Shown here piece by piece: positions 62,901 through 63,397 of a DNA stretch of 64,000 bases. Location of the stretch: contig NC_053410.1 in assembly GCF_016859285.1 (NCBI RefSeq), forward strand, positions 23,265,558 through 23,329,557, written 5' to 3'. The stretch's first letter is position 1. Every line of letters starts with the position of its first letter. Source of the stretch: Xiphias gladius. Lineage: Eukaryota; Chordata; Actinopteri; Istiophoriformes; Xiphiidae. The position numbers were made by a program, and so were the translations under genes. Below the pieces are notes generated by a model. It had not been told where the DNA came from, did not search any database, and worked only from the letters and a program-made list of their open reading frames with translations.

Positions 62901-63181
62901 GAACCCTCTTTCTGGATCAAAGGCTAAGCCCATTCCAACCATCGATACCTCAAGAACACAGGTAATGTGTTCTTTGTAAATCATTCGCTCAACGTTAGGT
63001 AATTACTTACTCTATGTGGTGGAATTTAAATCAAGAGTATGTGTGGTGATTAATGTCCTTTTTCTTACCTCAGAGACTTCCCAGCATGGAGCTGCCAGAC
63101 GCCTCCTCGCCTCTCCCAGCCAGCAACAGTTGTCGTGTAGTGAAAAATTCCATTAAACTGGCCCTCAACCGTCACAAGTGA
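47956..63181 (+). CDS. papolg: Poly(A) polymerase gamma (22 exons)
   Basis: Nuclear template-independent poly(A) polymerase that extends mRNA 3' ends. Exons: 47956-47972, 48752-48910, 49333-49399, 49853-49934, 53993-54102, 55147-55200, 56179-56290, 56531-56620, 56943-57081, 57239-57311, 58891-59011, 59261-59345, 60122-60175, 60297-60416, 60812-60921, 61286-61407, 61554-61711, 61983-62083, 62357-62559, 62712-62795, 62902-62961, 63074-63181. All introns are GT-AG and phases agree; the joined frame is 742 residues (human gamma 736). The nucleotidyltransferase motif FGSYRLGV is followed by catalytic Asp111 and Asp113 (GADIDAL), with Asp165 in GIEIDLLF. The central domain has KRRGIYSN and TCQLYPN; the RNA-binding domain has [13 protein letters not shown]. 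The Ser/Thr/Pro-rich tail has SLDSS and [12 protein letters not shown], a bipartite NLS (KR641-642, KRHK653-656) and the gamma-type end [11 protein letters not shown]-terminal MKEMS and the tail favour gamma over alpha. A longer splice form is possible (see 63,297). Confidence 0.96.
50885..51115 (+). repeat. Direct repeat R4, copy 1, in papolg intron 4
   Basis: Shares ATATAGCTGAA, CAGCACAGCTG/CAGCAGAGCTG, TGTCAGAT.ACATC and ATCAG.ATTTCAGCAGTGCA-type blocks with 51,950-52,165, in the same order and orientation. Confidence 0.55.
51950..52165 (+). repeat. Direct repeat R4, copy 2, in papolg intron 4
   Basis: Diverged second copy about 1.05 kb downstream of copy 1. A weaker possible third relative begins near 53,140 (CACACCGCACAGCTGTTGCC). 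Confidence 0.55.
58707..58750. repeat. (TG)n(CG)n tract in papolg intron 10
   Basis: About 16 TG units run directly into six or so CG units, an uninterrupted alternating purine-pyrimidine run with strong Z-DNA potential. It ends about 140 nt before exon 11. Confidence 0.95.
62128..62206. repeat. GATA/TAGA microsatellite in papolg intron 18
   Basis: Interrupted GATA, ATATAGAT and GATAGA units. Confidence 0.92.
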
Positions 63182-63296
63182 GCTTCAGCTTTTATTCCAG
63201 CGGCATCAGGGCAACTGAAACTGTTGGTATTACCTAATTGTCTTTCTAAGGTGTTTACTTTGTTTAATTCAAGTGTATGTTTCCGATGTCATGCAG

Positions 63297-63397
63297 CATC
63301 ACACCTCCCAAGCCCCCAGTGTTTGAGGGCACCCTCACCACTGACGCTCCTGCTGCCGGCGAAGAGAAGGGCATGTCCATTCCTGTCATTGGCTCAA
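63297..63397 (+). CDS. papolg: Putative additional papolg exon, duplicate of exon 18
   Basis: A 101-nt block bounded by a good acceptor (CCGATGTCATGCAG) and a good donor (GTGAGT). Exon 18 (61983-62083) is also 101 nt with the same phases. Both encode a PPK-containing start, an acidic/Ala-rich middle and an identical GMSIPVIGS end, with a synonymous-looking difference in that last motif. It joins in frame to exon 22 if the donor AA|GTGAGC at 63,177/63,178 is used, which removes the TGA stop. Its own donor would need a following phase-1 exon that is not visible before the window ends. It may be an alternative C terminus or a decaying exon copy. Confidence 0.6.

Follow-up and report, generated by a model that had tools for sequence, protein, structure and literature searches.

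C-terminal isoforms of a canonical poly(A) polymerase reportedly arise through the alternative RNA processing of PAPOLA described by Zhao and Manley. The papolg locus of Xiphias gladius analysed here resembles that case by the enzyme family and by a route in which a choice of splicing or polyadenylation would produce tail isoforms; it differs in that papolg is another paralogue and that the PAPOLA case is not known to involve an exon duplication. For exon duplication, the closest described cases are the tandem duplicated exon substitution events of human genes; among 236 of these, 118 are internal and 77 swap the C terminus (Martinez-Gomez et al. 2022, PMC9741552, excerpts). The copy of exon 18 that lies downstream of the papolg stop, hereafter exon 18', is like the C-terminal events in those excerpts: it has the same length and phase as its parent and a core motif that was kept while the rest diverged. 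It is unlike them in being situated beyond the normal stop, with exons 19-22 between copy and parent, and in having no visible partner exons up to 64000.

Composite terminal exons and intronic polyadenylation are another known route (PMC4227790, PMC5928244 and PMC10960005, excerpts): the donor of a last exon may be used for splicing, or transcription passes over it as far as a poly(A) site, and papolg could follow the same scheme. The cases in the excerpts of PMC4227790 concern premature, promoter-near events; unlike in those composite exons, the putative papolg donor coincides with the normal end of the protein, and its poly(A) site is a putative one. In mutually exclusive exons governed by competing RNA structures, the copies share a sequence that pairs with one common site (PMC6071210, excerpts). 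Among the papers listed for papolg, no title or beginning of an abstract dealt with the duplication of a papolg exon; since few subscription papers were covered, this is weak evidence of absence. Excerpts of PMC3287031 likewise say nothing on such a duplication.

The window, that is the whole stretch of 64,000 nucleotides analysed, contains a papolg model with an unbroken translation and 21 GT-AG junctions. The features discussed are the following:

47956..63181, plus strand: papolg coding sequence, 22 coding exons, 742 amino acids plus the stop
61983..62083, plus strand: exon 18, the original copy, 101 nt, whose first codon has two bases in exon 17
63074..63181, plus strand: exon 22 up to the stop, ending CGT CAC AAG TGA, with TGA at 63179-63181
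63175..63183, plus strand: CAA|GTGAGC, a donor-like site that includes the TGA stop, with its exon edge at 63177
63277..63296, plus strand: weak acceptor ATGTTTCCGATGTCATGCAG before exon 18', matrix score -2.8
63297..63397, plus strand: exon 18', duplicate of exon 18, 101 nt, same phases, (N/G) + 33 residues
63395..63403, plus strand: donor CAA|GTGAGT after exon 18', its 9 nt identical to the exon 18 donor
63430..63432, plus strand: in-frame TAA, reached if the exon 18' donor is unused, giving a 20-residue tail
63645..63650, plus strand: AATAAA, the sole AATAAA, ATTAAA or TATAAA from the papolg stop to 64000

The gene is papolg: its product carries the canonical catalytic, central and RNA-binding domains of a PAP (Pfam PAP_NTPase, PAP_central and PAP_RNA-bind) and is nearer to the gamma than to the alpha enzymes. 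The closest solved chain is human PAPOLG (PDB 4LT6, 1018.5 bits, residues 1-505), above the alpha enzymes 1q78 and 1f5a (both about 904 bits, 903.6 for 1q78). The C terminus is the one that the initial annotation had read, CAC AAG TGA; human PAPOLG ends in ...LNR, compared with which the HK would lengthen this protein by two residues. A Pfam search with the 274-residue joined tail gave no family at E 0.01. The 185-residue tail from exon 18 to the stop, without exon 18', gave 8 pattern matches in viral contigs and 79 in genome contigs of prokaryotes, none of which was confirmed; this absence of relatives is expected, because the collections are those of viruses and prokaryotes.

Two other loci of the window were noticed. 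Around 30500-31446, on the minus strand, lie the remains of a GPCR of the hydroxycarboxylic-acid-receptor type: the ORF 30907-31446 matches HCAR1 (8z87) at 1.7e-30 and covers positions 1-110 of the 260 of the 7tm_1 profile, then stops, and GPCR-like stretches seem, by eye on three-frame translations, to go on in other frames, so that this locus is probably a pseudogene. At 37416-37952, on the plus strand, an ORF of 178 amino acids matches Pfam PF06541 at 6.6e-08 and presumably corresponds to a TMEM229-type membrane protein.

Exon 18' is a real duplicate of exon 18, in tandem and on the same strand. This rests on three observations. The two copies are identical at 63 of 101 nucleotides, without gaps and over the full exon length; when exon 18 is placed along both strands of the 64 kb (about 128,000 placements), an average of 24.5 positions agree (SD 4.4), and the runner-up placement reaches 46. 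They have 16 residues in common over the 33 full codons, including the identical run GMSIPVIGS. Finally, in a tblastn of the 742-residue papolg protein against the window, exon 18' is the best non-exon match among the matches listed (E 0.001), the runner-up outside exons stands at E 0.25, and no further papolg piece appears below E 0.2 in the same set. The initial annotation had seen this 101-nt block continuing the frame with the length and phase of exon 18, as well as the motif kept by both copies, and rightly so. It had also described the flanking introns as unlike, which the alignments bear out: intron 17 against 63182-63296 gives a Smith-Waterman score of 10, equalled by 139 of 200 shuffles, and intron 18 against 63398-64000 a score of 13, equalled by 104 of 200, so that neither flank shows similarity above shuffles. 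From this it had deduced that the duplication is old; the unlike flanks agree with that, but a small duplication would fit them equally well, so the event is either old or small.

A stretch of 40 bases running across the donor (62050-62089 and 63364-63403) is common to both copies with 4 differences, and ends in 22 identical bases spanning the end of the exon and the donor. It is possible that this stretch is a conversion tract or a conserved splicing signal. The search of 61408-64000 for a complement of the 40-nt block gave a best score of 8, reached by 129 of 200 shuffles, so that no complement stands out from shuffled sequence there.

The splice sites were scored with donor and acceptor matrices built from papolg's own 21 junctions; as these matrices are small, the ranks outweigh the values. 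The putative donor overlapping the stop scores 6.5, to be compared with -3.8 to 11.9 for the 21 papolg donors in leave-one-out, and 110 of the 3993 GT sites of the window (1.7 per kb) are as good, which suggests a site of fair to good quality. The last bases do read AA|GTGAGC, which the initial annotation had called a good donor. The overlap with the stop becomes less striking because any phase-2 GTRA donor left unspliced reads NNG TRA, which is a stop. Phase 2 is found at the end of exon 17 (61711) as well as at the 63177 donor: exon 18' is open whether it is entered from one or from the other, and the frame is kept by the junction 63177 to 63297, which would extend the tail, and by the junction 61711 to 63297, which would exchange it. 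The acceptor of exon 18' had been called good and is not: its -2.8 lies under all 21 real papolg acceptors (leave-one-out lowest -1.6), and 1707 of the 4124 AG sites of the window match or beat it. It may still be usable, since its pyrimidine content, 10 of 16, equals that of exons 3 and 20 and exceeds that of exons 5 and 9. The donor that follows exon 18', also announced as good, is strong: its score of 9.1 profits from the exon 18 donor, which has the same sequence and is part of the matrix, and becomes 8.3 with that one left out; only 28 of the 3993 GT sites do as well.

The duplicate, its open frame and its compatible phases are accompanied by a bias in codon positions. Over the 33 codons, exons 18 and 18' differ at 11 first, 7 second and 19 third positions, and 20 of the 38 differences are at third positions (hypergeometric P 0.002). 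The bias is found outside the motif too: in codons 1-24, the three positions differ in 11, 7 and 17 cases of 24 (Fisher P 0.012). We obtained a dN of 0.36 on 73 sites and a dS of 1.31, the latter based on about 26 sites and near saturation; for a copy drifting neutrally while exon 18 is held, dN would be about half of dS or more. With differences concentrated at third positions and a dN of less than half the dS, the sequence does not look much like a relic in free drift.

How often drift alone would give such a copy was estimated with two null simulations, one (A) in which exon 18 is limited to synonymous change and the copy is neutral (6 divergences, 3000 runs each), the other (B) in which the whole change is on the branch of the copy (4 divergences, 20,000 runs each). 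Across both nulls, 38 to 69% of the neutral runs still have an open frame, and 1372 of 10896 windows of the length of exon 18' in papolg introns (12.6%) are open in a given frame. At least 16 identical residues out of 33, as a sole requirement, are seen in 2.2 to 21% of the runs of B, and in 100, 84 and 36% of those of A at its three lowest divergences. Amino acid identity alone is therefore compatible with drift; what drift seldom gives is such an identity together with numerous changes at third positions, since only 0 to 3.0% of the runs of A have an open frame, at least 16 of 33 residues and at least 19 third-position differences. As for the tests on the motif, which were selected after it had been noticed, runs that stay open, differ at 19 or more third positions and keep 9 identical residues in a row make up 0 to 0.13% of A, the conserved stretch of 10 residues is kept in at most 0.01% of those of B, and third positions of the motif differ in 2 cases of 9 against 17 of 24 outside (P 0.019). 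A retained coding character of exon 18' is supported by this pattern of changes. The initial annotation had taken the kept motif to suggest selection. The third-position bias and the low dN of exon 18' point that way for the exon; on the other hand the silent sites of the motif are also unusually alike, for which selection on amino acids alone is not a full explanation. Part of the identity of the motif may come from a gene conversion tract, or from a need at the RNA level close to the donor.

Downstream of exon 18', the AATAAA at 63645 is 464 bases past the papolg stop and 213 bases past the TAA at 63430-63432; neither AATAAA nor ATTAAA occurs between the papolg stop and exon 18', and AGTAAA occurs at 63742 and 63795. 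As the first AATAAA comes only at 63645, beyond exon 18', the normal transcript may carry exon 18' in its 3' UTR. Copies of exons 19-22 were sought in the 603 bases from 63398 to 64000, with a best Smith-Waterman score of 27 for protein (reached by 110 of 200 shuffles) and of 12 for DNA (141 of 200), i.e. none was found there. Between 63440 and 64000, five candidate phase-1 exons (AG to GTRAG, at least about 20 nt) were inspected, the longest of 67 nt, and none looked papolg-like by eye. The region 63510-63740 has by eye the look of a mobile-element remnant, with TTGACGA and TCATCAAC-like pieces. A repeat search over 63398-64000 turned up a single inverted pair (63465-63481 with 63640-63656) and no direct repeats.

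These data can be read in several ways. We consider it most plausible, at roughly 45%, that exon 18' is a retained alternative 3' coding exon, issued from an old tandem duplication and joined to exon 22. A different junction would make it part of an exchanged tail: exons 18-22 would have been duplicated as a set, exon 17 would be spliced to 18 or to 18', the exons 19' to 22' would lie past 64000, and the donor in the stop would be a chance site. The phase 2 of exon 17 makes its junction to exon 18' an in-frame one (GITPPK...), the order 17-22 followed by 18' would be expected if the duplicated segment had begun within intron 17 and ended past exon 22, and an exchange of this kind has good precedent, because C-terminal swaps are over-represented among the human events (77 of 236; PMC9741552, excerpts). 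However, no exon 19' is found in 603 bases although the original intron 18 has 273, no trace of a duplicated intron 17 precedes exon 18', and the weakness of the acceptor counts here as well. We hold such an exchange to be rather unlikely, and have a slight preference for the extension of exon 22 over it because of the donor at 63177.

It is just as doubtful, in our estimation, that exon 18' is a relic, a duplicated fragment of an exon within the 3' UTR or beyond papolg, unspliced and untranslated, whose high identity towards the 3' end would be due to a short gene-conversion tract or to chance survival. An acceptor poorer than all 21 real ones, partner exons found nowhere up to 64000, and a frame that stays open in 12.6% of intron windows and 38 to 69% of neutral runs would all suit such a fragment, as would silent sites of the motif as conserved as they would be after conversion. 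What suits it badly is that the third-position bias extends outside the motif (P 0.012), that dN is below half of dS, and that the strong donor goes with an exact match in exon length. Far less probable still is a role as last exon of an alternative transcript, with the donor at 63397 ignored, the stop at 63432 and the poly(A) after the AATAAA of 63645: all the parts needed are inside the window, the in-frame TAA being followed 213 bases on by the AATAAA, but a strong donor, with the exon 18 donor sequence, would have to be left unused.

To return to the extension of exon 22, the proposed course of events would be as follows. Long ago, part of the 3' region with exon 18 in it would have been duplicated in tandem to give exon 18', then kept as coding sequence, and exon 22 would behave as a composite terminal exon. 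When exon 22 is not spliced, its donor would be read AAG TGA, giving the usual C-terminal end, with exon 18' within the 3' UTR; when it is spliced from 63177 to 63297, exon 18' would be included in the mRNA, and the tail thereby added to the protein would repeat the GMSIPVIGS motif. We infer in this way the transcription, splicing and translation of exon 18', the choice of its junction and the continuation past 63397; after either junction into 63297, read-through of the second donor could also lead to the TAA at 63430-63432. The choice between a stop and a longer tail, as put forward by the initial annotation, thus keeps its in-frame junction but is weakened by the poor acceptor, by the junction from exon 17 that is equally in frame, and by the possibility that exon 18' uses its own TAA.

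It is tempting, although this is a long shot, to imagine that papolg senses the choice made at its own 3' end: splicing of the donor in the stop would bury the C terminus behind the second GMSIPVIGS tail, polyadenylation would leave the normal C terminus free, and the tail of the enzyme could itself tune which form is made. The PAPOLA tail is reported to contact splicing factors. Separately, IPVI within GMSIPVIGS is a candidate fit to a SUMO-interaction pattern.

The papolg exon 18' is likely a new case of a known kind of exon duplication. If it is unused, it is a well preserved relic of an exon. If it is used, it would give a canonical poly(A) polymerase a tail isoform for which the papers listed offered no description, and GMSIPVIGS, kept by both copies, would be marked as a selected short motif.
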